From NCBI RefSeq assembly GCF_036010325.1, contig NZ_CP108549.1:7750001-7814000 (forward strand): a stretch of 64,000 nt of DNA. The letters run 5' to 3'. The stretch is from Streptomyces sp. NBC_01210 (GTDB taxonomy: Bacteria > Actinomycetota > Actinomycetes > Streptomycetales > Streptomycetaceae). This document shows positions 15,869-35,215 of the stretch, piece by piece. Each line of letters begins with the position of its first letter. The first letter of the stretch is position 1. The position numbers and the translations under genes are program-made. Under the pieces are notes generated by a model, which was not told where the DNA came from, did not search any database, and worked only from the letters and a program-made list of their open reading frames with translations.

Positions 15869-16650
15869 TCACGCCCCGGTGGCATGCAAGCCGCCGTCCA
15901 CATGCACGATCTCCCCAGTGGTGCGGGGGAACCAGTCGGAGAGCAGCGCGACGCACGCCCGGGCCACCGGCTCCGGGTCGGACGAGTCCCGGCCGAGCGG
16001 GGCGCGCTTCGCCCACAGCGCCTCGAACGACTCGGCTCCGGGAACTCCCCGGGCCGCGAGCGTACGGACCGACCCGACGCCACCAGATTCACGGTGACGC
16101 CGGCCGGGCCGAGGTCCCGCGCCAGATAGCGGGCCGTCGACTCGAGGGTGCGCCTTGGCGACGCCCATCCAGTCGTAGTCGGGCCAGGTCACGGACGCGT
16201 CGAAGTCCAGGCCGACGACGGACGAGCCGCGGCCGAGCAGCGGAAGACAGGCCGCGGTCAGTGACTGCAGCGAGTACGTGGAGAACTGCAGCGCCTGCGC
16301 ACCTGCGGCCGGCCGGCCGTGAGGAAGCCGCCGCCCATCGCCTCCGCAGGCGCGTACGCGATCGCGTGCAGAATGCCGTCGAGCCCGTCCACATGGCTGC
16401 GGAGCCGGTCCGGCAGCGCTGCCGGACCGTCGGTGGACGTCACATCCAGCACCACGACCGGGGCCGGAGCAGGCAGCCGCGCGGCCGTACGCGCGGTGTG
16501 GCCGGCCGTGGCCCCCGGAGCCGAGAGCACCACCGTGGCCCCCTCGGTCTGAGCGAGCGCGGCGGTGTGGAAGGCCGGCGAGAAGCGGTTGAGCACGCCC
16601 GTCACCAGCATCCACCGGCCCTCCAGCAGCCCGTTCCCCATCCGCGTCAC
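15869..16650 (-). pseudogene. FabI/InhA-like enoyl-ACP reductase, three frameshifts
   Basis: Read through all three frames, the region matches a whole InhA/FabI protein of about 255 residues: GRWMLVTG start, SVVGLDFD, the catalytic Tyr/Lys in YDWMGVAK, VNLVASG, RAPLG and a closing TGEIVHVDGG. Three single-base changes break it: a base missing near 16296-16302 (before AQALQFSTYS), an extra C near 16140-16146 (after VAKAH), and a base missing near 16075-16085 (after NLVASG). All lie within about 230 bp. The GTG start overlaps the stop of the upstream gene (GTGA), so it belongs to the leftward operon. Either the gene is decaying or the sequence has local errors; each indel is next to a short C or G run. 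Confidence 0.8.
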
Positions 16651-17783
16651 CCCTCATCGCCGTTCGCGGCATTCCGTGCGTACACGGCATCGGCCGGATC
16701 CTCCCGGCGCCGCAGCAGCTGCGCCGCCTGCCACATCTGTGCCGCAGCCCGGGCGGTGTCCTTCGCGCGGAAGCCCTCGCACAACTGGGGCAGATGGGGC
16801 CGGAGCGCGTCTTGAACGGAGGGCGCGAACTCCACATCCCCGTCCGGGGCGATACGCACCCCCTCGGCGAAGGTGAGCCGCTCGTTGTAGGCGACGGCCT
16901 CGCTCAGCGTGAGACCGTGCGGCAGATCGAGTTCGACCCGCCGTCGCGAGACCCGCGCGGGATATCCGCCGGGCAGCCCCTGCGGTCCCGGCACGGCGGT
17001 GCGCAGCTCGGGGCCGCCGTGCAGCGCCGTGAGCAAGCGGGCCACCGTGTGCGCGGTGACCGGGTTGAGTGCCTCGCGCGGTACGCCGCGCTGCTGGGCC
17101 AGGAGCTGTCCGACACCGCCCAGTTCATGGTTGCCGAGCCAGACCCTGGCCTCGTCGTCCGGGTGGTCGGGCCGGTGCAGATGGCGATGGTGGGCCAGCA
17201 CCCGCAGGCCCCGCCGGGCCGCCGGGCCGAGCGCCGTCTGTACCGAAGTGGTGATCAGCGTTCCGTTGCCCACCCCGCACACGACCGGAAGTCCGAGCCG
17301 GTACAGCAGCGGATTGACCGCATCCGGATAGCAGGCGTTGACCAACTGGGCCTGGGAGTACATCTGTTGGAGTGCGCGGCCGACGCGCAGGGCGACGGCC
17401 GCCTGGAGCGGCAGGGTCGCGGCGAAGCCGCAGCGGTCCAGCACCCTCGTCCAGGCGGACGGCGTACGGTCTCGCTCCCACGGCGAGTGCCACGAGGCGC
17501 ACACGAGCACTGTGCCCGGCCCCACCGCCGCCAGCCGCTCCCTCAGAACCGCGTCGTCGGAGTCCAGCTCACCGGGGAGGAACCGGCGCGGCACCCGGCA
17601 GAGTGCCGCCTCGGCGCGCGCCGGACAGCAGACCGAGGAGGCACGCCGGCTGTCGCGGCCAAGGACATGCACCTGGCCGGGGCCCTGCGCCGCGGGGGTG
17701 CGGGCCAGTGCCATACACACGGCGCGGGCGAGCGAGCCCGTGCCGACGACGACGAGCGTGGGCGGGCTCTGTCGTCGGATCAC
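16647..17783 (-). CDS. LDH/MDH-like NAD-binding protein of unknown reaction
   Basis: 378 residues. It begins with a Rossmann motif, LVVVGTGSLARAVCMAL (9-25), and has a VNACYPDAVNPLLYRLGLP...CGVGNGT segment that recalls the VVSNPVD...GSGT region of lactate/malate dehydrogenases. The C-terminal 130 residues are not familiar. GTG 17783 overlaps the stop of the ATP-grasp gene, and its own stop overlaps the FabI-like GTG, so all three are one translational unit. A reductase or dehydrogenase acting on a small acid is the natural guess, but I cannot name the substrate. Confidence 0.6.
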   Translation of the reverse strand: MIRRQSPPTLVVVGTGSLARAVCMALARTPAAQGPGQVHVLGRDSRRASSVCCPARAEAALCRVPRRFLPGELDSDDAVLRERLAAVGPGTVLVCASWHSPWERDRTPSAWTRVLDRCGFAATLPLQAAVALRVGRALQQMYSQAQLVNACYPDAVNPLLYRLGLPVVCGVGNGTLITTSVQTALGPAARRGLRVLAHHRHLHRPDHPDDEARVWLGNHELGGVGQLLAQQRGVPREALNPVTAHTVARLLTALHGGPELRTAVPGPQGLPGGYPARVSRRRVELDLPHGLTLSEAVAYNERLTFAEGVRIAPDGDVEFAPSVQDALRPHLPQLCEGFRAKDTARAAAQMWQAAQLLRRREDPADAVYARNAANGDEG

Positions 17784-19198
17784 CGGCCCTCCTCCTCGGT
17801 ACCGGCGGCAGGGCGCTCAGTCGGGCCGGCCCAGGTGAGCACGGCGTTCTCCGATGCGCCGGCCCCGCCGACGCTGATCACACCGCGGGAGGCGGACCCA
17901 CTGGCGCCGTCGGTGAGGAAGCGTGCCCAGCATCCGCCGGGCCGGTTGCCGAAGAGCATCGGGCTGAGTACGGGGGCGACCTGGGCGGTGAACGTGCGGG
18001 TGCCGTCGGTGAGTTCGAGAGCGCAGGTGGCGGGCTCGACGTACTCCTGGACGATGCTGTCGCTTGCGGCGAAGGCCGACTCGACCGCCTGCCGCCAGTC
18101 GGCGGGCTCGGTGTAGCGGCCGACGAGGACCTCGCGGCCCATCATGCCGATGGCCTTCTTGAGGACGAACCGCTCCTGCTGGGCCAGGAGCAGCGGCGGC
18201 AGCTCGTGTTCCTGACCGTGCCGGCGGGTACGGCCGGGGATGGTGATACGGGTCCACGGAAGATGCCGTTCGGCGAGTCGGCGTTCGGCGCGGGTCATCC
18301 AGGGGAGGCCCTCCGAGACCAGCGCGAGGGCCTTCTTGTTGGCGAGCAGACCGCTGCTCTGCGGCGGAAGCAGCAGCAGCCCCGCGCGCTGGGCGTCATG
18401 CACAGGTCGCAGGCTCTGACCGCGTTCTCTCCAGTCGGCCGGGGCGAAGTTGCGCAGGCCGAGCGGGTAGCGCAGGCTACCGGGGCGGCCGAGTGCCTCG
18501 GGCAGCCGGTCGGGTTCGAGGAAGTCGGCGGTGAAGCCGCGGCGGCGGAACTGCTCCAGTTCGCGTTCCTGGAAGCGGATGTCGGCAGTGTCCAGCAGAT
18601 CCCCGAGGCTTCCGATGATCGCGATCGCCCTGGGCAGCCGGCGGCTCGCGCACACGTCCTCGAATGCCCGTACCCGGGTCTCCAGCGGGTCATATCCGAA
18701 GAAGCGTTCACGGTGGGTGTGCTGCCAGACCTCGGTCAGACCATGGGTCTCGTTCGGTTCCCCGAAGGTGCCGCCGACGTTGAACTCCAGCAGCTGCGGG
18801 CCGTTTTCCCCGATGACGATGTCCGGGCGGGCCATCATGGAGCAGTACGCGGTCTCGGTGTTGTCCTGCCCGGACAGCAGCGGATAGTCGTCCGGGTCCG
18901 CGCCGAGCGCCTCGATACGGCCCGGCCAGCCACCGTCGAGTGCGAGGACCGCCCGGCGTACCAGAGCCAGCAGCGTACGGGCGATGTCGAACAGCTCCTC
19001 GTACGACTGCTGCGGCACCACGAACGGCTGCGCCGGCAGCGGGCCGTCGAGCGGCACACTCAGCCCCGCCAGCTCCCGGTGCAGCAGTTCATGCGTCTCG
19101 GCGGCGGACAGCCGCCGCAAGGACGCCGGATCAGGACGGTCGGTGTCCCGGAACCATGGGTGGACGGTGCCTCTCGGCGCGGACGCGGTGCTGGTCAT
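17780..19198 (-). CDS. ATP-grasp ligase, circularly permuted/glutathionylspermidine-synthase-like
   Basis: 472 residues. The LLEFNVGGTFGEPN segment near 135-148 and the later FVLKKAIGMMGREVLVG near 345-361 are ATP-grasp metal- and phosphate-binding elements; their reversed order is that of circularly permuted ATP-grasp proteins. Such enzymes form amide bonds between a carboxylate (via acyl phosphate) and an amine. It lies between a degraded beta-alanine-forming PanD-like gene and a dehydrogenase-like gene in one operon, so ligation of beta-alanine or a relative is a reasonable guess only. ATG 19198 has GGAGAGGG in front. Confidence 0.7.
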   Translation of the reverse strand: MTSTASAPRGTVHPWFRDTDRPDPASLRRLSAAETHELLHRELAGLSVPLDGPLPAQPFVVPQQSYEELFDIARTLLALVRRAVLALDGGWPGRIEALGADPDDYPLLSGQDNTETAYCSMMARPDIVIGENGPQLLEFNVGGTFGEPNETHGLTEVWQHTHRERFFGYDPLETRVRAFEDVCASRRLPRAIAIIGSLGDLLDTADIRFQERELEQFRRRGFTADFLEPDRLPEALGRPGSLRYPLGLRNFAPADWRERGQSLRPVHDAQRAGLLLLPPQSSGLLANKKALALVSEGLPWMTRAERRLAERHLPWTRITIPGRTRRHGQEHELPPLLLAQQERFVLKKAIGMMGREVLVGRYTEPADWRQAVESAFAASDSIVQEYVEPATCALELTDGTRTFTAQVAPVLSPMLFGNRPGGCWARFLTDGASGSASRGVISVGGAGASENAVLTWAGPTERPAAGTEEEGR

Positions 19199-19224
19199 GG
19201 CCCTCTCCTCACTCGCCGCTTCGC

Positions 19225-19516
19225 TCAGCGGACGAACTCGCCGCGCAGGGTGCCGGCGACCGGCTCCGCGAGGTCGGCCCCGGTGCCGGTGCACCGGGGG
19301 AGACCAGCCGGGCGGCCGCCCCGTTGATCCCGATGACACCTGATCCGGGCTCTCCCTCGATGGCGTACGTGGACAGCCGTGCCCCGTTGTTGATGTCCAC
19401 CACGTCGACCTTCTCGCCGCTGACGAGACCGGCGGCCTCCAGCGCAGCAGCATCGCCCTCTGCAGCCCGTAGGGTTCAACTCCGGGAAGCGCGCCGCGAG
19501 CGGGAATCGAGCGCAT
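19225..19516 (-). pseudogene. PanD-like aspartate decarboxylase remnant, frameshifted
   Basis: The middle reads [20 protein letters not shown], then [11 protein letters not shown] and [18 protein letters not shown], a strong match to the C-terminal half of PanD (pyruvoyl aspartate 1-decarboxylase, makes beta-alanine). The N-terminal 30 residues do not match, the Gly-Ser self-cleavage site cannot be found, and the frame changes twice: after about 19455 (entering LEAAG) and near 19300 (leaving for a frame ending [17 protein letters not shown]). It is first in the leftward operon, 26 bp before the ATP-grasp gene. It is probably dead unless the sequence has errors. Confidence 0.65.
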
Positions 19517-19750
19517 TGCTATTTCCTTCGAGAGTAATTCTCCGCCCCGCTCCTTCTTTCTTCTGGACACGTATTCTTTCTTCTGTTTATTCTGTCATTC
19601 ATCGCTGCGCCGGGCTGAGTTCCGGGCTCTCGTGCGAAGAGCCGCAGGAAAGTTAGTCGGACGGTCTCGAGAACCACTGGAGACCCTCCGGCCGCCACCG
19701 GTTCCCGTCGGTCCCGCCCCGACATCCCTGTGCCGCGAGGAGACAGCTCG
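19517..19750. promoter_or_regulatory. Divergent promoter region with 12-bp direct repeats
   Basis: This 234-bp gap separates the leftward PanD-like operon from the rightward aldehyde dehydrogenase operon and holds no gene. Its first 90 bp are clearly richer in A/T than the rest of the window. The 12-mer ttctttcttctg occurs twice, at 19554-19565 and 19574-19585, a 20-bp period or about two helical turns. This fits a tandem activator site; the two SARPs are possible binders, though SARP repeats are usually 11 or 22 bp apart. Confidence 0.5.
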
Positions 19751-21004
19751 ATGAGCCATCCGTCCATGCCCGTTCTGGAGTCGTTCACCCGCACCTGGCC
19801 CAACCTCGAAGCCGCGCACGAGAAGGCGATGAGGTCCGCCTCCGCCCTGTTGACCTGCCGCGCGGACCTGCTGTCGCTGCTGACACGGGTCGCCACCTAC
19901 AGCAGTGCCCGCGATGAACTACTGCGTTCCGTAGGGGCGTTGACCGGAGCGCCCTGGGAGCTGGCCCGCAACTGCCCGCCCCAGCTGTCGCGGCTCTCGG
20001 TGTTCCTGCCGTCGAACAACATCCTCTACTCGTACGCGCTGTTCGGCCTGATCCCCGCGCTCTACTGCGACGAGGTGATCATCCGTCCCTCGGCGCGTAT
20101 TCGGGACACCGCGTATGCCGTGCACAAGCTGATCAGCAGCCGTCTCGACCCGGATCTCGCCCAGCGCATCAAGATGGTCGACGTCTCCCAGCGGCAGTTC
20201 AAGCCGATCTGCTCGGGATCCGACGCGGTGGTCTTCACCGGTCAGCCCTCCAACGCCCATGCCGTGATGAGGTCCGTCGGCGACCGGCCACTGTTCCTCG
20301 TCATGGGCTCCGGGCCCAACCCCCTGATCGTCGGCCCGCGTACGGACCCGGGTGCCGCCTGTCGGGCCATCCTTCGCGCCCGGCTCTACAACTCCGGCCA
20401 GGACTGCCTGTGCCCGGATGTCATCTTCGTGCACCGGCTGCGGCTCGACGCGATCGTCGAGCAGCTGCGCGCCGAACTGTCCGTACTCACCGTGGGCGCG
20501 CGCAGCTGGCCCGACACCGTACTGACCCCGCTGGTCTACGACGACGCCGCCGAAGGCGCGGCGGAGTTCCTCGCCGAGAACGCCGACCACGTGGTCAGCG
20601 GCGGCGAGGTGGACCTGGAGCGGATGCTGGTCGAACCCTCGCTGCTGGTGTTCCCGGAGGGTGTGGACTTTCACCCGCCGGAGCTCTTCTCGCCGGTCTT
20701 CTGCATCGTGCCGTACGAGGACCCGGAGATGCTCCGCGAGTGGGCCCGCAGCCCCGAGGAGCTGGAGCGGGGCATGTATGTCTCGGCGCTGGGCGAGCCC
20801 CGGCTGACGGGCGAGACCCTGGGCACCGGCGTCATCAGCCGCAACGCCACCACACTGGACGCGGAGGACGGCAACCAGCCGTTCGGCGGCTACGGCGTGC
20901 ACGCCAGCAGCATCCGGCGCGACGGGCGGCTGATCGGCCGGCCGCTGCTGCTGTCGGCGGAGGCAGGCCTGCGGCAGTCCGTCATCACCGGACCGCTGCG
21001 GTGA
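19751..21004 (+). CDS. Aldehyde dehydrogenase-superfamily protein, probably acylating type
   Basis: 417 residues. The catalytic Cys219 is in NSGQDC, and the nearby PSNN and VVFTG segments follow the ALDH fold. The glutamate of the usual ELGGK motif is missing: the matching stretch reads VMGSGPNP. ALDH relatives lacking that general base usually work on thioesters (acyl-CoA or acyl-ACP reduced to aldehyde, or the reverse). ATG 19751 has GAGGAG 9 bp before it. It is the first gene of a tightly coupled operon with KS-like, ThDP, ligase, KS and transferase genes, which fits thioester chemistry. The direction of reaction cannot be read from sequence. Confidence 0.75.
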   Translation: MSHPSMPVLESFTRTWPNLEAAHEKAMRSASALLTCRADLLSLLTRVATYSSARDELLRSVGALTGAPWELARNCPPQLSRLSVFLPSNNILYSYALFGLIPALYCDEVIIRPSARIRDTAYAVHKLISSRLDPDLAQRIKMVDVSQRQFKPICSGSDAVVFTGQPSNAHAVMRSVGDRPLFLVMGSGPNPLIVGPRTDPGAACRAILRARLYNSGQDCLCPDVIFVHRLRLDAIVEQLRAELSVLTVGARSWPDTVLTPLVYDDAAEGAAEFLAENADHVVSGGEVDLERMLVEPSLLVFPEGVDFHPPELFSPVFCIVPYEDPEMLREWARSPEELERGMYVSALGEPRLTGETLGTGVISRNATTLDAEDGNQPFGGYGVHASSIRRDGRLIGRPLLLSAEAGLRQSVITGPLR

Positions 21005-21600
21005 GCGTCGCGACCCAGGCGTACGACACCCACACGGGCGCGCAGGCGGGGTTTGCGCGGGCGCTGGTGGCGGGCGCGGGGAGGCCGGGACCGGGAACCG
21101 TACAACTTGTCACGCGTGTCCTTGCCGCTCTGGTGGCCGAGTCGGATCCGCCGCCGCGCGCTGCGCCCATCGTGCTCGCCGCGACAGACCACTGCCTGCA
21201 TGTCGTCGCCGAGTATGTGACGAAGTGCGAGGACACCGCGCGGCGGCTGCGGCCCTCGGTGTCCCTGGCGCTCGAACCCTCGCTGCTGCTGGGCCGGTTC
21301 ACCGTCGAGCAGGGGTGGGCCGCGCCGTGCTACGCCCTGGTGACGCCCGGCGGCGCGGGCGCGGGCGCGCTGCGCTGGGCGACGGCCGCCGTGCGCAGCG
21401 GCAGCGTGCCCGCCGCGGTGGTCTGCGAGGTGGTCCACGGTCAAGTCGCCGGCCGGGAGCGCGTGGTGGCGGTCGCCGGGCTCATCGGGCGGAGCGGCGC
21501 GGCCACGACCGGCGTACGCACCCTCGCCGAGGACCTCGACGTCAACGCCCTCGACAGCGTGCTGCTGCGTGCCGCACGGGGCGAGGGGGCAGGGACATGA
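21001..21600 (+). CDS. Short ketosynthase-like (thiolase-fold) protein, no full active site
   Basis: 199 residues; GTGA overlap upstream, ATGA overlap downstream. The layout, with ATDHCLHVVAEY, a long hydrophobic ALRWATAAVRSGSVPAAVVCEV segment and a final LDVNALDSVLLRAAR, suggests one half of a thiolase/ketosynthase fold, similar to N-terminal-like KS fragments found beside complete ketosynthases. No CHH or CHN triad can be assembled. It might pair with the ketosynthase at 24670 in the way chain-length factors pair with KS-alpha. I cannot assign a function with confidence. Confidence 0.5.
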   Translation: MSVATQAYDTHTGAQAGFARALVAGAGRPGPGTVQLVTRVLAALVAESDPPPRAAPIVLAATDHCLHVVAEYVTKCEDTARRLRPSVSLALEPSLLLGRFTVEQGWAAPCYALVTPGGAGAGALRWATAAVRSGSVPAAVVCEVVHGQVAGRERVVAVAGLIGRSGAATTGVRTLAEDLDVNALDSVLLRAARGEGAGT

Positions 21601-23294
21601 GCGGCATCCCCTCCGCCTGGCAACAGGCGGCCGGCTGCCTCGCGGACGCGGGCTGCGAGACCGTCTTCGGACTGCCCACCGACGAACCGGGACTGCTGGA
21701 CGCGGCCGACGCACACCCCAAGCTGCGCGCCGTAGGGGTACGTGCCCACCGCGCCGGAGCCTGTATGGCGATCGGCCATGCCGTGGTCACCGGCCGGCCC
21801 GTGGTGCTGGCCCTCGGCGCGGGACCGCCGTTCGGCGACGCCGTCACCGCCTTGATCGAAGCCGACTCGCTGTGCGCGCCGGTGGTCGTGGTGACCACGC
21901 GTATCCCCGCCGAGGGGCTGGGCCGCGGCGGCTTCCAGGACGTCGACCAGGCGGCCCTGGCTGCCGCGTTCACCACGACGTATCTGCGGGTCCAGGACCC
22001 GGGGACGCTGGCCTGGGCGCTGCGCAGAGCCGTCCATATGTCGGTCAACGGGCGGCCCGGGGTGAGCGTCGTCGAGGTCGGCCACGAAGTGACCGAGGCC
22101 GTGATCCCCGCCGATGCGCCGCCGGGTTACGGATCCGTACGGCGGCTGCGCTCCGTACCGGAGGAGGCCGAACTGCGGCGCGCCGCCGGGATTCTGGCCG
22201 TGGCTGAACGCCCGCTGCTGCTCCTCGGCGGCGGCGCCCGTGCGGCGGCGGCGGGACCCGCCGCCCTCGCGCTCGCCGAGCGCTGGGGAGCGCCGGTGAT
22301 GACGACCGCGGCGGGCCGCTCCACCGTCCCCGAGGACCACCCGCTGGTCTGCGGCTCGGTTGGCCTCTACGCGACGCCGCCGCTGGAGACCGTCCAGTGC
22401 GGCGCGGACACGGTGCTCGCCGTGGGCAGCCGGCTCGAGGAGACCGCCCGCCTAGGCTGGGACACCCTGGAGTCGGTCCGGCTGGTGCAGATCGACAGCG
22501 ACCCGGCGGCGTTCGGCGCGGGCGTGGTGGAGCCCGCCGCCGCGCTGCTCGGAGACGCTGCCGCCACCGTGGCGCTGCTCGCCGGGCTGCTGCCGCAGCG
22601 CACCCGGGAACGGGAGGAGTGGCTTCGGACTGCGGCACACGCCCGCCGAGCGGCACAGCTGAGCTGGTCCGCCGACGGTGACCGGGCCGACTCGCCCGCC
22701 CGTACCGCGCTGCACGCCCTCGCCGAGATCTTCCCGGAAGCCACCACCGTCCACGACAACGGCATGAACGACATCTGGTCGTACCACTGGCCGGTCCACC
22801 GGGTCGGGCCGCGCGCCCGGACCGTGGTCCCCGGCGAGCAGACGATGCTCGGCTTCGGCACCGCCGCCGCGCCGGGAGTCGCTCTCGCCGCAGCGGGCCG
22901 CCCGACCGTCGTGGTGTGCGGCGACGGAGGGGCCGAGATGGGCCTGGACGCCCTGCCCACCGCGGCCGAACTCGGCCTCGGTCTCGTCCTGGTCGTATTC
23001 GACAACCATGGCTACGGCTGGCCCCGGCTGCTGCGCCACGAACTGGACGCGCCCACGGGGCTGACCCGGTTCGCCAGGCCACTGCCCGTCGACGACGTGG
23101 TACGCGGCCTCGGCGGGCAGGTCGAGTCGCCGGACGGCGCAGACACCATCCCCGCCGCGCTCCGCCGGGCCCGGGATGCCGCCGCGTCGGGGTGTATCGC
23201 CCTCGTACGTATCAAGGTCCCCGACGACGATGTGCCGCCCGGCGTCAGGCGGCTGTTCCTGACCGGCGGAGAAGACGCGGGAGACCTGATATGA
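21597..23294 (+). CDS. Thiamine diphosphate enzyme, acetolactate-synthase-like, lacking the canonical Glu
   Basis: 565 residues with the three-domain layout of the ALS/pyruvate-oxidase family. The C-terminal ThDP motif is intact: GDGG at about 442-445 and the partner Asn in FDNHGYGW about 28 residues on. In the N-terminal domain the segment usually reading RHEQGA is RAHRAGA (49-55), so the glutamate that activates the cofactor is Arg52. Known family members without this Glu (for example glyoxylate carboligase) still make acyl carbanions. A carboligation or decarboxylation of a 2-oxo acid is expected. It is coupled on both sides to the acyl-activating genes. Confidence 0.85.
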   Translation: MSGIPSAWQQAAGCLADAGCETVFGLPTDEPGLLDAADAHPKLRAVGVRAHRAGACMAIGHAVVTGRPVVLALGAGPPFGDAVTALIEADSLCAPVVVVTTRIPAEGLGRGGFQDVDQAALAAAFTTTYLRVQDPGTLAWALRRAVHMSVNGRPGVSVVEVGHEVTEAVIPADAPPGYGSVRRLRSVPEEAELRRAAGILAVAERPLLLLGGGARAAAAGPAALALAERWGAPVMTTAAGRSTVPEDHPLVCGSVGLYATPPLETVQCGADTVLAVGSRLEETARLGWDTLESVRLVQIDSDPAAFGAGVVEPAAALLGDAAATVALLAGLLPQRTREREEWLRTAAHARRAAQLSWSADGDRADSPARTALHALAEIFPEATTVHDNGMNDIWSYHWPVHRVGPRARTVVPGEQTMLGFGTAAAPGVALAAAGRPTVVVCGDGGAEMGLDALPTAAELGLGLVLVVFDNHGYGWPRLLRHELDAPTGLTRFARPLPVDDVVRGLGGQVESPDGADTIPAALRRARDAAASGCIALVRIKVPDDDVPPGVRRLFLTGGEDAGDLI

Positions 23295-24670
23295 ACGCAG
23301 CTCCGGGTCCCCTTGTCATCGACGGGGACCTCATCACCCCCACCGCGCTGGGCACCGCGGTCGAGCGGACCGCCAAGGCCCTGAGCCGTGAAATCGGGCC
23401 CCCGACCGGCCGCCCGCCCCTGGCCGTGGGAGTCGACGCGACGACCGGCCCCGCCGTGATCGTCACGGCGCTCGCCGCCGAGCGGCTGCACGTGCCCCTC
23501 TTCCTGCGCGGCCACTCGGCCGCCGTACAGCACTGGCCACCGCAGGTCGTTGCCGTCGCAGCACCGAACGGGGGCGAGCTCGCCCCCGTCGTCACGGCGA
23601 CGCCCCGCCGGCCCGTGGAACCACCGGCCCCCGGCACCGGCGCGGTGTTCTGGACCTCCGGCAGTTCGGGCACCGCCAAAGCGGTCGTCCTGTCCCGGTC
23701 CGCACTCGGCTACCAGGCCGAGGCCACCGCCCGCCATCTCGGCATCGACGGCGACGACGCGCTGCTGCTGCCGCTGCCGCTCAACCACGCCTACGGATTC
23801 AGTGTGTTCGGCATCTGGCGCCGGTTCGGCGGTGAGCTCAATCTGCACACCGTGCTGCGTCCGGAGGCGGTCGCCGCCGATGTGAAAGGCCGCCGTACGA
23901 CCTCGGTGGACGGTGTGCCCTTCCTCTACACGCTGCTCGCCAAGGCCGCCGAGTGCGACCCCGTACTGCGCGCAGGGCTAAGGGCGCTGACCGTACGGGG
24001 CTGCGGCGGCGCCGTGCTGCCCGCCACCGTCGCCGCGCACTTCCTCGACGTCGTCGGAGCACCCGTGCACGACGGCTACGGACTCACCGAGGCGGGCCCC
24101 AATGTGGCCCTGTCCTCGGCCGCGCACTCCCGTACGGGCACGGTCGGCAGGCCCCTGCCCGGCACCGACGTACGTATCGCCCCCGACACCGGCGAAGTCC
24201 TGGTCCGCGGACCAGGACTGATGACCGGGTATCTCGGCCGCCCGGACGCGACCGGGGACGCGCTGCCCGGTGACGGCTGGCTGCGCACCGGGGACACCGG
24301 TGCGCTCGACCCGGACGGCTACCTCAGCGTGCTGGGCCGGCTCAAGGACATCATCATCGTGCTCGGCGAGAACCACGCACCGGCCACCATCGAGGACGTA
24401 CTGCGCGCGGACGAGGCGGTCGCCGACGCCGTAGTGGTCGGCGTGCCCACGCAGAAAGCCCACGGCGACTCGGTGTTCGCCTTCGTCGAGGCAGCCGACC
24501 CCGGGCGTCCGCCGAGCGAACGGGCACTGCGCACCCGCTGTTATCAGGGTCTGCCGCCGCTGCTGAGGCCCCGCGTCATCCAGGTCGGCGCCCTGCCGAG
24601 GCTGCCCGGCGGCAAGGCCGACCGGCAGCGGCTGCGCCGGCTTGCCGCCACTTCGGGAGGAGCGCGCTGA
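23291..24670 (+). CDS. AMP-dependent acyl-CoA/acyl-ACP ligase
   Basis: 459 residues, slightly short for the ANL family. Visible motifs: the P-loop WTSGSSGTAK near 119-128, GYGLTEAGP in the middle, and WLRTGDTG followed by GRLKDIIIVLGE near the hinge; the final Lys of the C-terminal domain is in GGKADRQRL. These enzymes activate a carboxylic acid as acyl-adenylate and pass it to CoA or a carrier protein. ATGA overlap with the ThDP gene, TGATG with the next gene. The substrate is unknown; the substrate pocket is not of the clear aryl-acid type. Confidence 0.88.
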   Translation: MNAAPGPLVIDGDLITPTALGTAVERTAKALSREIGPPTGRPPLAVGVDATTGPAVIVTALAAERLHVPLFLRGHSAAVQHWPPQVVAVAAPNGGELAPVVTATPRRPVEPPAPGTGAVFWTSGSSGTAKAVVLSRSALGYQAEATARHLGIDGDDALLLPLPLNHAYGFSVFGIWRRFGGELNLHTVLRPEAVAADVKGRRTTSVDGVPFLYTLLAKAAECDPVLRAGLRALTVRGCGGAVLPATVAAHFLDVVGAPVHDGYGLTEAGPNVALSSAAHSRTGTVGRPLPGTDVRIAPDTGEVLVRGPGLMTGYLGRPDATGDALPGDGWLRTGDTGALDPDGYLSVLGRLKDIIIVLGENHAPATIEDVLRADEAVADAVVVGVPTQKAHGDSVFAFVEAADPGRPPSERALRTRCYQGLPPLLRPRVIQVGALPRLPGGKADRQRLRRLAATSGGAR

Positions 24671-25863
24671 TGGCCCCACGAACCACACCCGACACTGTCA
24701 TCACCGGCATGGGCCTGATCACCGCCTACGGCGGCGGCACCGGCGCCTTCTGGAGCGGACTGCTGGCCGGATCCCGGGCGCTGCGCCCGCACGCCGCCCT
24801 GGCCGCCGCAGGCTTCGAGCGCACGGTGACCGCGCCGGTCGCCATGGCGGACGGCGCGGGGAGCGACGAGCGGCACGGCTCCCGCCGCAGCCTCCTGGCC
24901 CGGGTCGCCACCGGCCAGGCAATGCGCGAGGCCTCTCTGGCCGATCTCGGCCCCGGAACACTGGTGGTGACGGTAGGTCAGACTCCGAAGGCCGACGACG
25001 CGAGGGAAGGCGCGGGTGACGGCGCGGCGCCACGCTGGGGACGGGACGAGCTCGCCGGCCCCTCGCCCGCAGACCTGCCCGGCATCTCCCCGCGCGCCGA
25101 GACCGTCTATCTCTCCCAGGCCTGCGCCTCCGTCTCCTTCGCCCTCGACTACGCCCGCACCTGGCTGCGCTCCGGCTGCGGCACGACCGCCCTCGTCGTC
25201 GGCACCTGCGTACTCAACGCCTACGAATACGCGGGCATGGCCATCACCGGGGCGCTCAGCCCCACCGGCGCCCGCCCCTTCGACACCGCCCGCGACGGCA
25301 CCAGCCTCGGCGAGGGCGCCGGGGCACTCCTGCTGGAGACCGCGGCGGCCGCCGACCGGCGCGGAGTGCGACCACAGGCCGTTCTCGCCGGCGCCGCCGC
25401 CCGCGTGAACGGCCGCAGCCCGGCCGCCTCGGACGAGGAAGCCATCAGTGACTGCGTCCGTGCAGCCCTGGACGACGCCGGACTCGAACGCGTCGGCTAC
25501 ATCCACGCCCACGCCACCGGAACCGTCCAGGGCGACACCGTAGAACTGGCCGCGCTCGAGGCCGTGGGCGCTCCACTCGGCTGGGAGGCCGTCCCCGTCA
25601 GCGGCCACAAGGGCGGCATCGGCCACCTCATGCACGCCTCGTCCGCCCCCGGAATCGCCGCTGCCCTGGGCTATCTGCGCACCGGCACGGCCCCCGGCAC
25701 GCCCGGCCTCGACGCCCCGGAAGCGGCCGGCCGGTCCCTACGCCTGCTGACCAGGCCCCGTGAACTGCCCGGCGCGCCCCGCAGCTGCCTCGTCAACAGC
25801 TTCGGTTTCGCCGGAAACAACTCCTCTCTCGTCCTGACCGCACCGGATGGGAGCACCCGGTGA
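24670..25863 (+). CDS. Stand-alone beta-ketoacyl synthase (KAS I/II type)
   Basis: 397 residues. The Cys-His-His set is complete: Cys152 in QACAS, His281 in HAHATGT, and His319 following Lys314 in KGGIGH. The family glycine-rich end (VNSFGFAGNN) is present. It is more divergent than the KS-alpha at 31708 and has no adjoining chain-length factor, unless the short KS-like protein at 21001 serves. It condenses an acyl thioester with a malonyl unit, probably on a small molecule prepared by the ligase, ThDP enzyme and ALDH of the same operon. GTGA overlap with the transferase gene downstream. Confidence 0.85.
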   Translation: MAPRTTPDTVITGMGLITAYGGGTGAFWSGLLAGSRALRPHAALAAAGFERTVTAPVAMADGAGSDERHGSRRSLLARVATGQAMREASLADLGPGTLVVTVGQTPKADDAREGAGDGAAPRWGRDELAGPSPADLPGISPRAETVYLSQACASVSFALDYARTWLRSGCGTTALVVGTCVLNAYEYAGMAITGALSPTGARPFDTARDGTSLGEGAGALLLETAAAADRRGVRPQAVLAGAAARVNGRSPAASDEEAISDCVRAALDDAGLERVGYIHAHATGTVQGDTVELAALEAVGAPLGWEAVPVSGHKGGIGHLMHASSAPGIAAALGYLRTGTAPGTPGLDAPEAAGRSLRLLTRPRELPGAPRSCLVNSFGFAGNNSSLVLTAPDGSTR

Positions 25864-27074
25864 TCCGCACGCTGCGCGCCCGGGCCGACTACGGCTGGCG
25901 GCACAGCGCCGAGCCCGCCGTGGCCCAGCTGCGGCGGCTGTACGAAGGCGAGTTGCGCGCCGCCCTGCCCCGCAGATCCGTGCACACCCACGGCGCGGAC
26001 GGCGGACCCGGCGTCTCGTACACCGGCCCGCAGGAGATCGGCAAAGGGCTGCTCGCCCAGATCGAATGCCACAGCGGCAGCCCCGGCTCCCCGGCCGCCG
26101 CCGGACCCGAGCTGGTCATGGTCACCGCATCGGCCCGCCGACTGGCCGCACTGCCCAGCGACCGCTCGCTGCTGCTGCCGGCCCGCGTCCACCAGATCGT
26201 GCCGATCCGGGGCGACCTGGCAACCGTGCTGGCCGGCCGCAGCCGCCGGAATCTGGACAGATTCCGGCGCAACCAGCGGGTGGAAGGCTGGAGTTGGGAA
26301 CACGCCGGAACCCAGGAAGACCTCGACTTCTTCCACCGGCGGATGCTGCTGCCGACCGTGCGAGACCGGTACGGCCCCTACGCCGTCAGCGAGGACCCGA
26401 CCGTGATGCGGGAGTGCCTGCTGCGCCAGGGCCATCTCTTCTTCGTACGGGCCGGCGGCCCCGGCGGAGAGCGCATCGCGGGAGCACTGTGCCGCTGGGA
26501 CGCACGACGGCGCACCCTGCGCTTCCGGCTCACCGGAGTGCTTGACGCCGACCCCGAGCTGCGCAGGGCGGGCGCCCTCATCGCCGCCGAGTACTTCGTC
26601 TTCGACTGGGCGTGGCGGCATGACGTCGCCGCGGTCGACCTCTCCGGCGGCGCTCCGTTCCTGTCCCGCCCGATCGTCCAGTACAAGATGCGGCTGAACG
26701 CCGAGATCGTGCCGGCGCCCACCCCCGTACGCCATCTCGGGACGTGGTTGCACATCGCGCGGGACAGTGCGGGGGTACGCGATTTCCTGGTGGCCAACCC
26801 TCTGCTCGCCACTGTGCCCGGCGGCGGTCTTGAAGCCGTCTACTTCCACGACCGGACGCGGCCCGTGCGGGAGGATGTGGCGTGGCGCAGCGCGGGCGTC
26901 GACCGGTTCCGCGCCGTGGACCTCGATGAATTCCTTTCCCCGCGGGCAAAGTTGGACGACGGGTCAAGCGGTGCTCCAGTGCTGCCTGTCACGGTTCTGG
27001 AAGGCCCGCCAACCGCAGGGCTTCTCAGCACATTCCACGAAGGAGGCCGACGGTGGCACACCGGACGCTCATAG
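25860..27074 (+). CDS. GNAT/FemAB-like acyltransferase
   Basis: 404 residues. The middle and C-terminal parts (RSRRNLDRFRRNQRV near 128-142; RRAGALIAAEYFVFDWAWR near 239-257; LSGGAPFLSRPIVQYK near 262-277) follow the pattern of Acetyltransf_6/FemAB-like proteins, which transfer acyl or aminoacyl groups to amines. GTG 25860 overlaps the upstream stop, and the gene overlaps the type II PKS cyclase start by 22 bp, physically linking the building-block operon to the polyketide genes. An N-acyl transfer step in tailoring is possible. Substrate unknown. Confidence 0.65.
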   Translation: MIRTLRARADYGWRHSAEPAVAQLRRLYEGELRAALPRRSVHTHGADGGPGVSYTGPQEIGKGLLAQIECHSGSPGSPAAAGPELVMVTASARRLAALPSDRSLLLPARVHQIVPIRGDLATVLAGRSRRNLDRFRRNQRVEGWSWEHAGTQEDLDFFHRRMLLPTVRDRYGPYAVSEDPTVMRECLLRQGHLFFVRAGGPGGERIAGALCRWDARRRTLRFRLTGVLDADPELRRAGALIAAEYFVFDWAWRHDVAAVDLSGGAPFLSRPIVQYKMRLNAEIVPAPTPVRHLGTWLHIARDSAGVRDFLVANPLLATVPGGGLEAVYFHDRTRPVREDVAWRSAGVDRFRAVDLDEFLSPRAKLDDGSSGAPVLPVTVLEGPPTAGLLSTFHEGGRRWHTGRS

Positions 27075-27391
27075 TGGCTCGGATGGAGCCGGGCAAAGCC
27101 GGCGACATCGCCAAGATCTTCGAGGAGTCGGACTCGAGCGAGCTGCCCCACATGATCGGTGTGGCGAGGCGGTCGCTGTTCACCTTCCACGACCTCTACT
27201 TCCACCTCGTCGAGGCCGACAACGACATCAGCCCCCGTCTCTACCAGGCCCGCAGCCATCCCCTCTACGACGACATCAACACCCGGCTCGCCGAGTGCGT
27301 CTCGCCGTACGACCCGAACTGGCGGGAGCCCAAGGACGCGATGGCGCAGCCCTTCTACGTGTGGACCAAAGAAGGAGGAAGGATCCAGTGA
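27053..27391 (+). CDS. TcmI-family polyketide cyclase
   Basis: 112 residues, the size of TcmI-like second/third-ring cyclases (dimeric alpha+beta-barrel fold). It starts with RTLIVARMEPGKAGDIAKIFEESD and has the FHDLYFHLVE core strand pattern of the family. AGGAGG at 27041-27046 precedes GTG 27053. It starts inside the end of the acyltransferase gene and its stop overlaps the ACP start. TcmI-type cyclases direct later aldol closures of aromatic polyketides and are a marker of long-chain (tetracenomycin or pentangular) type II systems. Confidence 0.9.
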   Translation: MAHRTLIVARMEPGKAGDIAKIFEESDSSELPHMIGVARRSLFTFHDLYFHLVEADNDISPRLYQARSHPLYDDINTRLAECVSPYDPNWREPKDAMAQPFYVWTKEGGRIQ

Positions 27392-27648
27392 GCGAGTTCA
27401 CCCTGGCGGAGCTTGCCGGCAAGCTCCGCGAATGCGCCGGAGAGTCCGAGGGAATCGACCTCGACAGCGACGCGGTGCTGGACGTTCCCTTCATCGACCT
27501 CGGCTACGACTCGCTGGCGCTGCTCCAGGTGACCGGAGTCATCAAGCGCGAGCGCGGAGTCGAGCTCTCCGACGACGCCGTGGTGGAGGCAGAGACACCG
27601 CGCATCCTGCTCAAGATGATCAACGTCAATCTTCCTGAGGCGGCATGA
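27388..27648 (+). CDS. Type II PKS acyl carrier protein
   Basis: 86 residues. Ser42 in DLGYDSLALLQ is the phosphopantetheine site; the flanking residues are those of aromatic-polyketide ACPs. GTGA overlap upstream and ATGA overlap downstream make it part of a continuous translational chain. It carries the growing chain for the KS-alpha/CLF pair, which lie unusually far away (4.3 kb downstream) in a separate operon, with a divergent oxidase pair in between. Normally the three minimal-PKS genes are adjacent. Confidence 0.93.
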   Translation: MSEFTLAELAGKLRECAGESEGIDLDSDAVLDVPFIDLGYDSLALLQVTGVIKRERGVELSDDAVVEAETPRILLKMINVNLPEAA

Positions 27649-28400
27649 GCACCGAAGATGCCAACGCTTCGGGTCTGGCCGGAAAGCGAGTGCTCATCAC
27701 CGGGGGCACTCGCGGCATCGGACGGGCGACGGCTCTGGCCTTCGCCCGTGCCGGGGCACAGGTGGTGGCGGGACACAGCAGGGACGGCGAGGCCGCCGAG
27801 TCGCTCGTGCGGGAACTGGGCGAGTTCGGCGCCGGTCATCTGACCGTACGCGCCGACGTCACCACCGCTGACGGAGCCAGAGAGCTCGCCGAGGCCTGCG
27901 AGGAGCAGCTCGGCGGGCTCGACGTCCTGGTGAACAACGTCGGCATCGACGGCCACGCCAAGTTCGGCGATCTGGAAGCGGCGGAGTGGCAAAGGCTGTT
28001 CGACCACAATGTCACCTCCGCCTATCTGGTCACCCAGGCCGTGCTCGATCAGCTCAGCGAGGGCGCGTCCATCGTCAACATCGGCTCGTCGGTCGCCCTG
28101 CGCGGCCGGCCGTTCAGCGCCCACTACTCCGCGTCCAAGGCGGCCCTCGTCGGCTTCGGGCGGGCGCTGTGCAAGGAGCTCGGGCCGCGCGGCATCCGCG
28201 TCAACACCGTGGCCCCGGGTGTGACCGAGGCCGAGACCGGAGGAGATCTGCCGCCGCAACTGCGGGAGCGGATCGCCTCGATGACCGCTCTGGGCCGTCT
28301 TGGCCGACCCGAGGACGTGGCCGGGGCCGTGCTCTTCCTGGCGGGCGACGCCTCCCGCTATGTCACCGGTGCCACGATCACCGTCGATGGAGGAATCTGA
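27645..28400 (+). CDS. Ketoreductase (SDR) of the type II PKS, copy 1
   Basis: 251 residues, classical short-chain dehydrogenase. The NADPH motif TGGTRGIG is at 20-27, the NNVG strand motif near 90, the catalytic Ser in NIGSS and Tyr/Lys in YSASK. It ends with the usual TGATITVDGG. FabG-like SDRs in this setting reduce a carbonyl of the polyketide. A second copy is at 35216. Two ketoreductases suggest two reduction positions or a late tailoring reduction, as in several pentangular clusters. Overlaps the ACP stop and the next start. Confidence 0.92.
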   Translation: MSTEDANASGLAGKRVLITGGTRGIGRATALAFARAGAQVVAGHSRDGEAAESLVRELGEFGAGHLTVRADVTTADGARELAEACEEQLGGLDVLVNNVGIDGHAKFGDLEAAEWQRLFDHNVTSAYLVTQAVLDQLSEGASIVNIGSSVALRGRPFSAHYSASKAALVGFGRALCKELGPRGIRVNTVAPGVTEAETGGDLPPQLRERIASMTALGRLGRPEDVAGAVLFLAGDASRYVTGATITVDGGI

Positions 28401-28780
28401 TGCCGTACGCAGCGATCACCTACCGGGTCAAGCCCGGGCACGAGGACGAGATCGCGGAGATCTTCGCCCATTTCACCCGGGTCGACACCCCCGACTACCA
28501 GGGCGAGGACGGCGCGGCCGCCGGACGGCTCCTGGGCACTGGAGTGTTCATCAAGGACGACGTGATGGTGCGCGTCATCCACTACGAGGGCGACTTCGCC
28601 GCCATCGGCCGCCATATGGCCACCCAGAAGGGCGTGCACATCCTGGAGGAGAAGCTCCAGCCGTATCTGGCCGAGGAGCGTGACACCTCCTCACCGGCCG
28701 GCTTCGCCGCGTACTTCCGCAACGCCACGATGCGGTCCATCGCGCAGCTCAGCGTCGACTCCCACCCGGCACAGGCCTGA
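28400..28780 (+). CDS. SchA/CurD-like protein, copy 1
   Basis: 126 residues. The sequence AAITYRVKPGHEDEIAEIFA, then GRLLGTGVFIKDDVMVRVI, and a final FRNATMRSIAQLSV follow the SchA/CurD domain of spore-pigment and pentangular clusters. The first part looks like an ABM-type ferredoxin-like fold. The biochemical role is not settled; these proteins co-occur with cyclases and may help fold or oxidise the chain. TGATG overlap with the ketoreductase gene. A diverged second copy lies at 30709 on the other strand. Confidence 0.88.
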   Translation: MPYAAITYRVKPGHEDEIAEIFAHFTRVDTPDYQGEDGAAAGRLLGTGVFIKDDVMVRVIHYEGDFAAIGRHMATQKGVHILEEKLQPYLAEERDTSSPAGFAAYFRNATMRSIAQLSVDSHPAQA

Positions 28781-28785
28781 GTGCC

Positions 28786-29241
28786 ATGACCGAGGTGCTG
28801 GGGATAGCTGTTCTCCTCGGCAGCGGTGTCACCGCGGGGGTGCTCTTCGCCGTGGCGCTGAGCGTGCTCCCGGCACTCTTCGCCATGGAGACGGGCACCT
28901 ACGTGTACGCGCACAAACTGCTGGGCCGCAACTGGGACCCGACCATGCCGGTTGTCGTCCTCACCTCCACGCTGCTGACCGCGGCGCTCGCCGTCATGGC
29001 CGACGACGGCGCCGCCCAGATCCTGTTCACCGCCGCCGCGGTCCTGCTGCTCGGGGTCTCCGCCGTCTCGCACCTGTGCAACGTGCCGATCAACCGCAGG
29101 GTGAAAGCCGTCGAGAACCCGGACGAGCTACCGGCCGACTGGCAGGACCCGCGCCCGCTGTGGCGCCGCTGGCACCTGCTGCGCACTCTGCTCGCCGTCA
29201 TCGCGCTCGCGCTCAATGCCGCGGCGGTCACCGTGATCTGA
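28786..29241 (+). CDS. DUF1772 membrane protein, copy 1
   Basis: 151 residues with four hydrophobic helices (about 7-30, 55-75, 80-100 and 130-150). The segment CNVPINRRVKAVENPDELPADW is typical of DUF1772, a family that includes anthrone-oxygenase-like proteins in polyketide pathways. A cofactor-free oxidation of an anthrone-type ring, or a membrane scaffold role, is possible; neither is proven here. The stop codon is inside the terminator hairpin at 29218-29259. A second member is at 34735. Confidence 0.85.
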   Translation: MTEVLGIAVLLGSGVTAGVLFAVALSVLPALFAMETGTYVYAHKLLGRNWDPTMPVVVLTSTLLTAALAVMADDGAAQILFTAAAVLLLGVSAVSHLCNVPINRRVKAVENPDELPADWQDPRPLWRRWHLLRTLLAVIALALNAAAVTVI

Positions 29242-29259
29242 CACGGTGACCGCCGCGGC
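29218..29259. terminator. Bidirectional terminator hairpin
   Basis: Perfect 18-bp arms, gccgcggcggtcaccgtg at 29218-29235 and its complement at 29242-29259, with a 6-base loop holding the stop codon of the DUF1772 gene. It separates the rightward building-block/PKS operon from the convergent multicopper oxidase. No U-tract follows, which is normal in Streptomyces. Confidence 0.75.
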
Positions 29260-29279
29260 GGTTCTGCCGGTACCTACGC

Positions 29280-30698: not shown

Positions 30699-30708
30699 GG
30701 AATCTCCC

Positions 30709-31095
30709 TCAGTTCGTGGACTGGACTGTCGCGTCGCGTACGGACATCTGCGCCATGCAGGTGAGCAGGGACCGCTCGAAGGTGGCGACAAAGCCTTCGA
30801 CGGTGTCCGTCGCACGTGGCCTGGTCAGATAGGGGGCGAGCTTCTCCTCGACCTCGCGCACGCCCGGCTGCGTCGCCATGTGCCGGGCGATGGCGCCCAG
30901 ATCCCCCTGGTACTCGATGACGCGGACCATGGTGTCGTCGCGGATGAAGACGGCGGTGGCCAGAATCCGCGCGGCCTCCTCGCCCCCGTCGCCCTTGACG
31001 ACGGGGGAGCCCACCCGGCGGAATCCGGTGAAGATCTCGGTGATCTCCTTCTCGTAGCCGGCCTTGATGTCGTACGTGATGGCGGCGAAAGGCAT
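30709..31095 (-). CDS. SchA/CurD-like protein, copy 2
   Basis: 128 residues, similar along its whole length to the copy at 28400 (AAITYDIKAGYEKEITEIF; AVFIRDDTMVRVIEYQGD; LEEKLAPYL-like EEKLAPYL). ATG 31095 has GGGAG 5 bp upstream; an upstream in-frame ATG at 31131 adds twelve unconserved residues. It is 10 bp before the oxidase gene on the same strand. Having two members suggests separate partners or heteromers. Function of the domain is not settled. Confidence 0.87.
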   Translation of the reverse strand: MPFAAITYDIKAGYEKEITEIFTGFRRVGSPVVKGDGGEEAARILATAVFIRDDTMVRVIEYQGDLGAIARHMATQPGVREVEEKLAPYLTRPRATDTVEGFVATFERSLLTCMAQMSVRDATVQSTN

Positions 31096-31276
31096 GGCTG
31101 CTCCCTCGATGGGTGCTGTGTCTCGCGCCATGGCAGGTCACAACGCTCGCCGTCGGCTCGAGCGTGAGTACACCGGGGCGTGGTGCAGGCACATCAATGC
31201 CTCTTCGAGCCGGTCTGTAGGAACGGCTGCGACGGTTCCAGCCACTGGACGGACCAGGTCGTTGAGGAGGCGGGCA

Positions 31277-31711
31277 GTGACCACCGAGATCACGCGCACC
31301 GTGCGGGTGCACGCTGACGACGTCGAGGCCAACACCCGGCGCGGCGGCGACATCCGGACGACGCTCAGCCCCAGGACAGTGGGGTGCACTTCCGGATTCG
31401 GCGGTGTGCTGACCCTGGAGCCGGGCGACTTCGTCACCGAGCACTACCACCCGTATTCCGAGGAGTTCCTGCATGTCGTCTCCGGCCAGCTGGAGATGAC
31501 GATGGACGGCCAGCCGATCACGCTCGGCCCCGGCGACTCGCTGCTGGTGCCGATCGGCGTACGCCACCGGCTGGTCAACACCGGCACCGAGACGGCGAGC
31601 GGCGCGTTCCATCTCTCACCTCTGGCGCCCCGCCCCGAACTAGGGCACGTGGACACCGAGAAGGTCCAGCGGCCGCAGGAGTCCAACCCCCAGGTGGGCG
31701 GTGCCCAGTGA
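31277..31711 (+). CDS. Cupin-domain polyketide cyclase/monooxygenase-type protein
   Basis: 144 residues, single cupin barrel. Metal-ligand positions are visible: His56, His58 and Glu62/63 in HYHPYSEEF and His98 in VRHRL. Small cupins of this type are standard in pentangular polyketide clusters, where they assist ring closure. GTG 31277 follows GAGGAGG by 6 bp and opens the second rightward operon; the stop overlaps the KS-alpha start. The 181-bp gap before it, shared with the divergent SchA/CurD gene, has two separated TCGAGC motifs but no clear tandem SARP box. Confidence 0.85.
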
Positions 31712-32985: not shown

Positions 32986-32987
32986 CG

Positions 32988-34220: not shown

Positions 34221-34724
<504 letters not shown>

Positions 34725-34734
34725 GAGGAATCAG

Positions 34735-35196: not shown

Positions 35197-35215
35197 ACTC
35201 TTCCGGAGGAGAACC

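Follow-up and report, generated by a model that had tools for sequence, protein, structure and literature searches.

Cispentacin biosynthesis involves a type II polyketide synthase (PKS)-like system, AmcF-AmcG-AmcH, in which an adenylating enzyme loads 2-oxoglutarate on an acyl carrier protein (ACP), and this enzyme, a ketosynthase (KS) with a motif-less partner (AmcF-AmcG) and FabI act together (PMC10698177). The type II PKS clusters of the spore-pigment or pentangular type are typified by SchA/CurD, cupin, KS-alpha, chain length factor (CLF), Polyketide_cyc and ABM genes. Here we describe a region of Streptomyces sp. NBC_01210 that has points in common with both, comprising two divergent gene groups at positions 15869-27074 of a stretch of 64,000 nucleotides (the window), the rightward of which runs into a PKS cluster resembling the spore-pigment or pentangular type. 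An earlier note, made from the letters alone, had read the region as ten genes forming one building-block pathway coupled to this PKS. Comparison with sister clusters leads us to favour, at slightly better than even chances, a different reading, namely that a conserved type II PKS cluster of Streptomyces has, between a SARP regulator and its first cyclase, a variable slot, and that this region is that slot, occupied here by pieces of two separate sub-pathways that are optional and not needed for the cluster to persist. The gene content, the decay, one deletion, the absences and the conserved core are observed directly, while we infer the chemistry and any connection with the polyketide.

Genes of the window were called with a codon-usage gene finder and the open reading frame (ORF) list. 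The genome (G000; our handles for genomes begin with G and those for loci with L) has 9.2 Mb in two contigs. The slot and the adjoining cluster contain:

15869..16641, minus strand: FabI-like enoyl reductase pseudogene in which the frame changes three times, from alignment to the intact FabI of L102
16647..17783, minus strand: malate dehydrogenase (MDH)-like NAD(P)-Rossmann protein, intact ORF of 378 aa, from fold search
17780..19198, minus strand: predicted ATP-grasp C-N ligase of glutathione-synthetase fold, 472 aa, from a predicted model and Foldseek
19293..19454, minus strand: PanD (aspartate decarboxylase) relic, residues 29-82 only, from alignment to PanD
19751..21004, plus strand: aldehyde dehydrogenase (ALDH)-family protein, 417 aa, Pfam PF00171
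21001..21600, plus strand: 199-aa KS partner protein in the position of a CLF or cyclization factor (CYF), from a relative fused to a KS in G125
21597..23294, plus strand: thiamine diphosphate (ThDP) enzyme of the acetolactate synthase/glyoxylate carboligase superfamily, three TPP domains
23291..24670, plus strand: AMP-forming acyl ligase, 459 aa, PF00501 and PF13193
24670..25863, plus strand: divergent KS, PF00109/PF02801
25860..27074, plus strand: GNAT/FemABX-like transferase, 404 aa, from a family profile, one relative passing PF13480
26942..27055, plus strand: conserved leader with an AAGGAGG-type ribosome site before the cyclase gene, overlapped by the GNAT gene, from DNA shared with sister clusters
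27053..36655, plus strand (multicopper oxidase and one SchA/CurD gene on the minus strand): conserved type II PKS genes, matched in all six sisters

The PKS comprises cyclases (the first a Cyclase_polyket protein), an ACP, two ketoreductases, KS-alpha, CLF, cupin, ABM, SchA/CurD and DUF1772 (Anthrone_oxy) proteins, a multicopper oxidase and acetyl-CoA carboxylase parts, and its CLF matches a protein named WhiE-CLF-like at 75%. The cluster thus shares the SchA/CurD, cupin, KS-alpha, CLF, Polyketide_cyc and ABM genes of the spore-pigment or pentangular type, from which it differs in its two ketoreductases, the multicopper oxidase, a YcaO protein and the variable slot itself.

The slot resembles AmcF-AmcG-AmcH in having a KS with a conserved cysteine next to a partner in which no known motif is recognized, as well as FabI and an enzyme of the adenylate-forming kind (PMC10698177). 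There are differences, however. The window KS scores 137.8 bits against the AmcF equivalog model NF058662, below the cut-off of 325. Six further KSs encoded in this genome outscore it (up to 239.4 bits), so that the resemblance is itself unspecific, and membership of that family was rejected. Beside the KS, where the cispentacin system has the cyclization factor AmcG, the window has a short partner, which matches no NCBIfam model (none at E ≤ 10). The window block contains a ThDP enzyme, while the main text of the cispentacin paper contains neither ‘thiamine’ nor ‘ThDP’ (PMC10698177), and unlike the cispentacin system it has no ACP of its own. Among biochemical precedents, AmcF-AmcG comes closest to this KS-partner pair, and we use it as a working analogy without implying membership.

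A variable slot in a conserved cluster

Six sister clusters were compared with the window: PR69 (L009), MUM178J (L010), G285 (L036/L037), G218 (L046-L048), G088 (L097/L098) and G138 (L095/L096). As they were found via differing probes (leader/GNAT tail, KS partner or ALDH), they form a biased sample. All six share the regulators, YcaO, histidine kinase, PKS, ALDH and ATP-grasp genes in the same arrangement, and the slot between the SARP regulator and the first cyclase is kept in every one. A tree of eleven concatenated proteins, with support of 99-100%, joins the window to G285, then to G218 and then to PR69 and MUM178J, with G088 and G138 as the outgroup.

The content of the slot differs among these clusters. 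ALDH (66-94% identity) and ATP-grasp (48-74%) genes are present in all six sisters, and the block encoding the partner, ThDP enzyme, ligase and KS is complete in G218, deleted with a scar in G285 and absent from the other four. The slot of PR69 and MUM178J holds only ALDH and ATP-grasp, that of G088 and G138 holds ALDH, DUF6002 and ATP-grasp, and that of G218 has the block genes at full length with no GNAT, MDH, FabI or PanD matches beyond the leader. A whole-genome search for the ThDP enzyme (E ≤ 1e-40) found it in two of the seven genomes, the window's and G218, and not in the records of G285, G088, G138, PR69 or MUM178J. G088 and G138 carry DUF6002 in this slot, and the genomes G000, G285, G218, G162 and G025 lack it.

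Intact GNAT and MDH-like genes occur in none of the sisters, so that the window alone among the seven clusters carries them, and clear relics of the two are confined to G285. There the MDH-like fragment covers residues 166-375 (no match in the other five sisters), and at a scar the counterparts of window 20942-21179 and 26919-27113 abut; the roughly 5.7 kb between them (window 21180-26918) is missing, leaving roughly the first 60 partner codons, with length changes, and the last GNAT codons. The DNA common to the window and a sister starts again at about 26942 in PR69, 26951 in G218 and 26967 in G088, near the point where the GNAT family part ends; the leader is also shared with G285, and its end is alike in all seven clusters. 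In PR69, MUM178J, G088 and G138 the ALDH gene is followed directly by this leader. A 41-residue GNAT match in PR69 and MUM178J was rejected as a relic, since the shared DNA starts at about the GNAT family end and runs into the cyclase ribosome site and is thus taken to be leader; the GNAT match in G218 was likewise, less clearly, read as leader. In the window the family part of the GNAT protein stops near residue 361 and the remaining tail is the cyclase leader read through. Judging from these sequences, the window and G285 most likely share an ancestor that acquired the GNAT gene. Its present read-through into the leader would account for the additional tail and for the 22 bp that it has in common with the cyclase gene (start 27053). 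The ThDP block is older than the arrival of GNAT.

These seven clusters, with a near-identical type II PKS and differing slots, constitute a natural experiment in which a comparison of products, requiring hardly any genetic work, could show the role of the slot. Together with the cysteine-less ALDHs described below, the slot is the feature of this locus that deserves attention.

Decayed genes in the slot

Two divergent groups and eight ORFs that the gene finder calls intact stand from the earlier reading of ten genes in two operons; FabI and PanD do not stand as intact genes, although both similarities are real. That of FabI is confirmed by Pfam and NCBIfam, but an alignment of the window with the intact 256-aa FabI of G048 (L102) passes through frames -2, -1, -2 and -1, giving three frame changes within about 770 bp. 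The PanD similarity (67-70% identity, E 9e-20 and 3e-21) is limited to residues 29-82; the N-terminal part with the self-cleavage site and the C-terminus are both missing, so that neither the full length nor the self-cleaving serine of a PanD protein is present. From their sequences both genes are dead in the window. A general problem of sequencing error is unlikely, because the remaining slot and PKS genes are uninterrupted and align to the sisters over most of their length. The stretches fetched from the six sisters contain no true FabI match; one in G285 proved to be an artefact that falls on an out-of-frame part of the window ORF overlapping the MDH gene. Any present-day product of the slot must therefore be made without FabI and PanD or by borrowing them from elsewhere.

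A putative acyl-unit operon

The earlier note is right that each rightward ORF overlaps the next: from ALDH through GNAT the overlaps measure 4, 4, 4, 1 and 4 bp, and the last ORF extends 22 bp into the cyclase gene. Its identification of ALDH, ThDP enzyme, AMP-binding acyl ligase and KS is confirmed by Pfam, which also recognizes the cyclase. The five genes before GNAT are the first of the two putative pieces. Here the acyl ligase would activate a carboxylic acid, the KS and its partner would extend it, the ALDH, lacking its glutamate (see below), would produce an aldehyde by reducing the thioester, and to this aldehyde the ThDP enzyme would join a decarboxylated 2-oxo acid unit.

The 199-aa protein had been called short KS-like, a label that profile comparison hardly supports: hhalign against KS and CLF profiles gives a probability of 0.8-0.9%, and a single relative (P0016) has a weak match to a KS model (E 0.028). 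‘KS partner’ is the safer name, because its relative in G125 forms the N-terminal part of a KS protein. That fused protein (L051 8654-10336, minus strand) adjoins two proteins that by eye resemble B12/radical-SAM enzymes. From 5.8 billion proteins, 7999 candidates were scored and seven of them are related to the partner at E ≤ 0.001, which supports the view that the gene set is unusual.

The ThDP enzyme has three TPP domains and keeps the GDG...N motif, placing it in the acetolactate synthase superfamily, and its best PDB sequence match is BbmA (8x3x and 8xod; E 1.2e-39 and 2.8e-40, nearly full length). BbmA and acetolactate synthase keep the activating glutamate (HE in BbmA), in contrast to the window enzyme, where HE is replaced by AH and a histidine occupies the usual position of the glutamate; glyoxylate carboligase 7ct6 has valine there and the enzymes of G162, G025, G048 and G036 have glutamine. 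The PDB relatives of the acyl ligase, searched with the longer ORF P0008, are fatty-acyl-, feruloyl- and malonyl-CoA ligases. The KS retains Cys-His-His in the motifs SQACAS, HAHATGT and HKGGIGH, and its nearest PDB structure is 6kxd.

The ALDH and its catalytic cysteine

In alignment with PDB ALDHs and relatives the window ALDH keeps the cysteine, in GQDC, and has methionine at the usual position of the catalytic glutamate, so that the catalytic cysteine and general-base glutamate expected of a hydrolytic ALDH are not both present. The glutamate is absent from all 11 aligned ALDHs. Loss of this residue in ALDHs would favour acyl-thioester chemistry over aldehyde oxidation. The cysteine is kept in seven of the 11 (window, G285, G218, G162, G025, G066 and G048) and absent from four, being replaced by glycine in PR69 and MUM178J and by arginine in G138 and G088. 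All five ThDP-linked ALDHs have it, and four of the six without a ThDP enzyme have lost it. Among the PKS-linked ALDHs it is lost in four of seven, in which the ORFs are still intact:

L009 8704-9957 (PR69): ALDH-like ORF without the cysteine
L010 8425-9678 (MUM178J): ALDH-like ORF without the cysteine
L095 18059-19312 (G138): ALDH-like ORF without the cysteine
L097 17849-19102 (G088): ALDH-like ORF without the cysteine

The ratio of non-synonymous to synonymous substitution rates (dN/dS) of these ALDH genes is 0.13 between PR69 and MUM178J and 0.18 between G088 and G138. Other genes in the two pairs give 0.03-0.23, except the thioesterase (TE) at 0.46 and ATP-grasp at 0.26 and 0.47, one ratio being undefined. 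Such purifying selection on the cysteine-less ALDH within each pair suggests that it has another job. Inner support in the ALDH tree is weak (42-67%), but the ancestor of the PKS-linked ALDHs probably had the cysteine, because ALDHs outside this group keep it. We raise as a tentative possibility, one that we hold to be less probable than its opposite, that the ALDH-like protein performs an extra, non-catalytic function within the PKS machinery (as scaffold, chaperone or NAD-sensing partner) and would also serve as an aldehyde-making enzyme for carboligation where the ThDP operon is present, the cysteine having been lost twice elsewhere and the slot acting as an exchange site for aminoacyl and acyl side pathways. 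Should the ALDH without cysteine prove to be a functional pseudoenzyme, the type II PKSs of this family would have a partner of which we know no earlier description.

A putative aminoacyl sub-pathway

The 378-aa, 472-aa, 199-aa and GNAT proteins have no Pfam or NCBIfam match at E ≤ 0.001. The 378-aa and 472-aa proteins were folded from alignments of eight sequences each, and Foldseek matches of the predicted models agree with the LDH/MDH-like and ATP-grasp labels first given to them. For the 378-aa protein (mean predicted local distance difference test, pLDDT, 86.7) the best PDB folds are lactate and malate dehydrogenases (E 2.5e-9, template modelling score about 0.45-0.53); a PDB profile search with its family alignment gave weak matches only (best E 0.0054), and kinship with opine dehydrogenases was dropped when the fold search ranked lactate and malate dehydrogenases first. 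The model of the 472-aa protein is moderate (pLDDT 70.3). Its best match is glutathione synthetase (E 3.1e-15, probability 1.00), followed by homoglutathione and glutathionylspermidine synthases, and because these top folds are glutathione synthetases and glutathionylspermidine synthases it is by its predicted fold an ATP-grasp C-N ligase, with the same fold as those enzymes but only about 10-16% identity in the top alignments. Neither the ATP-grasp nor the DUF6002 profile matched the PDB at E ≤ 1. Compared with the window, the ATP-grasp genes of the six sisters have dN/dS values of 0.30-0.51, the highest mean (about 0.41) among genes kept in all six, although single multicopper oxidase and histidine kinase pairs exceed it.

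The FemAB/GNAT label holds for the family more clearly than for the window protein: one relative tested passes Pfam Acetyltransf_6 (PF13480), while the window protein itself has no Pfam hit. The family profile (134-282) weakly matches the aminoacyl-tRNA-dependent peptide synthase 9wqy (E 3.6e-4); six designed TIM barrels outscore 9wqy on a short segment and are taken as artefact. Lys276 is invariant across the family. A catalytic lysine is described for FemX and DhpH-C (PMC12945691), and Lys276 is likened to it here without an alignment. In spite of the weak match and the invariant lysine, the protein is too distant from such enzymes for direct assignment. A plasmid search with a GNAT relative gave no match, and a scan of genome contigs with GNAT returned only the PR69 and MUM178J clusters.

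The second piece, consisting of the ATP-grasp, MDH-like and GNAT proteins and formerly PanD, would form amide bonds with amino acids, the donor of the GNAT being probably aminoacyl-tRNA. The unit supplied by the slot would decorate or prime the polyketide.

Parts of the slot in other genomes

At E ≤ 1e-10, relatives of the GNAT protein are present in 13 out of 295 genomes of the genus, two of these being G000 and G285. In the remaining 11 loci (20 kb each), DUF6002 appears 10 times, ATP-grasp five times, and MDH-like and PanD genes three times each. MDH-like relatives occur in 22 of 382 genomes at E ≤ 1e-20, and seven further loci fetched around them contain DUF6002 (six of seven), PanD (four) and GNAT (one). 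None of these 18 GNAT or MDH-like loci (14-20 kb each) contains a type II KS-alpha or CLF, and only type I KS matches of about 25% identity were seen. A compact arrangement in G248 (L078 8549-13667, minus strand) has DUF6002, PanD and MDH-like genes with, by eye, an EamA-like transporter and two short ThDP-decarboxylase halves; L077 (G001) has genes of similar sizes.

The KS partner is found in eight of 392 genus genomes at E ≤ 1e-5, the window's own included. The order ALDH-partner-ThDP-ligase-KS recurs in G162 at 44-55%, away from a PKS of the window type, and again in G224 (L050), where several breaks in frame may mean that this copy too is decaying or that the assembly is poor. The surroundings of the ALDH are known for eight of the 11 ALDH-matching genomes besides G000; a ThDP gene adjoins it in G162, G025, G048, G036 and G137 and does not in G138, G088 and G066. 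The locus of G048 (L101/L102) has ALDH, ThDP, intact FabI, HadA-like dehydratase, agmatinase-like, ligase, KS and partner genes, and also FabF-like, acyltransferase (AT)-like, ACP, R2-like oxidase and P450 genes. Further ALDH-ThDP clusters are L103 (G036) and L104 (G137).

In the open-licence PMC literature we found no work on DUF6002, none of relevance to BbmA/CsmA or to the combination aspartate decarboxylase/ATP-grasp/GNAT (by title and abstract start), and none on the combinations starter unit/ThDP/ATP-grasp or agmatinase/thiamine/ketosynthase. PMC9866976 does not mention T2PKS, type II, type 2 or polyketide, and PMC7408125 mentions neither type II nor PKS, with polyketide appearing once, in its references.

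Alternative explanations

An optional acyl/aminoacyl side pathway in a variable slot is the most economical reading of these data. There are nevertheless observations that weigh against it, several of which favour instead the proposal of the earlier note that the genes form one dedicated starter or side-chain pathway feeding the type II PKS. The KS partner is present in six other strains at 63-94%, with one additional relative that matches half of it at 49%. Both the partner and a CLF at 87-94% to the window's are carried by S. lunaelactis, NPDC051907, NBC_00390 and NPDC020681, and the partner strain NPDC002730, whose assignment is indirect, has a CLF at 99%. Relatives of the KS at 80-92% occur at full length (81-92%) in NPDC048479 and S. 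lunaelactis, and in shorter form in NPDC019890 (289 aa, 74% query coverage) and one further source (307 aa, 76%). The block thus occurs with the PKS more often than the six fetched sisters suggest, and these under-represent it because the partner and a close CLF co-occur in further strains. The overlapping operon runs unbroken into the cyclase gene, and between the window and G218 the partner, ThDP, ligase and KS genes have dN/dS values of 0.24-0.41, a moderate purifying selection (KS values for other clusters were not used, being matches to other ketosynthases). With eight slot ORFs intact as well, the sequences suggest that the operon is probably still in use. As an alternative to repeated loss, the ThDP block may have been gained in the common ancestor of the window, G285 and G218. 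The ALDHs of G285 and G066 keep the cysteine without a ThDP enzyme, and in comparison with the distant G088 and G138 the ALDH evolves faster (0.38-0.42) than the PKS genes.

Despite this evidence we consider a dedicated pathway unlikely, as FabI and PanD are dead, the block is absent or deleted in five of the six fetched sisters that keep the PKS, and parts of it are met again in fetched stretches that lack type II PKS genes. The earlier claim is therefore only partly supported. Activation, extension, carboligation and attachment are steps that suit the enzyme classes present, and in at least four other strains the partner occurs together with a close CLF, but a single coherent pathway is not borne out given the decay, the deletion and the reuse of parts elsewhere. 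The note had itself named wide occurrence of the operon away from PKS genes as an argument against it; the gene order is seen away from this PKS in G162 and, frame-broken, in G224, but not widely. It should be said that the genes are real and unusual and were mostly well named from sequence alone. The caution to be drawn is that an overlapping operon need not be one pathway.

It is also doubtful that the slot genes make a separate small molecule and merely sit inside the PKS cluster under its regulators. The lack of a type II KS-alpha or CLF in all 18 GNAT or MDH-like loci would fit such an arrangement, as would the five-gene operon of G162, but the ALDH is present in seven of seven clusters, lies directly before the cyclase leader in PR69, MUM178J, G088 and G138, and is about as slow as the PKS genes within the PR69-MUM178J and G088-G138 pairs. 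This constant presence and slow evolution within the pairs speak for a link between at least the ALDH and the PKS. We hold it highly improbable that the entire slot is degenerating and has no function left in Streptomyces sp. NBC_01210, since eight ORFs are intact and the dN/dS of the ALDH is 0.11-0.19 between the window and G285, G218, PR69 and MUM178J, even though the frame changes of FabI, the PanD fragment, the absence of DUF6002 from the window's genome and the high mean dN/dS of ATP-grasp point that way.

Neighbouring genes

The YcaO protein beside the PKS (window 10354-12438, minus strand) is kept in all six sister clusters, its gene in G285 being split over two frames (L037 3625-5707). 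Farther away, at window 425-2553, a 640-aa HAD-domain protein gene has a 22-bp overlap with a 75-aa ORF, with a phosphopantetheinyl transferase (PPTase) gene nearby; the two are perhaps an FkbH-like protein with its ACP.

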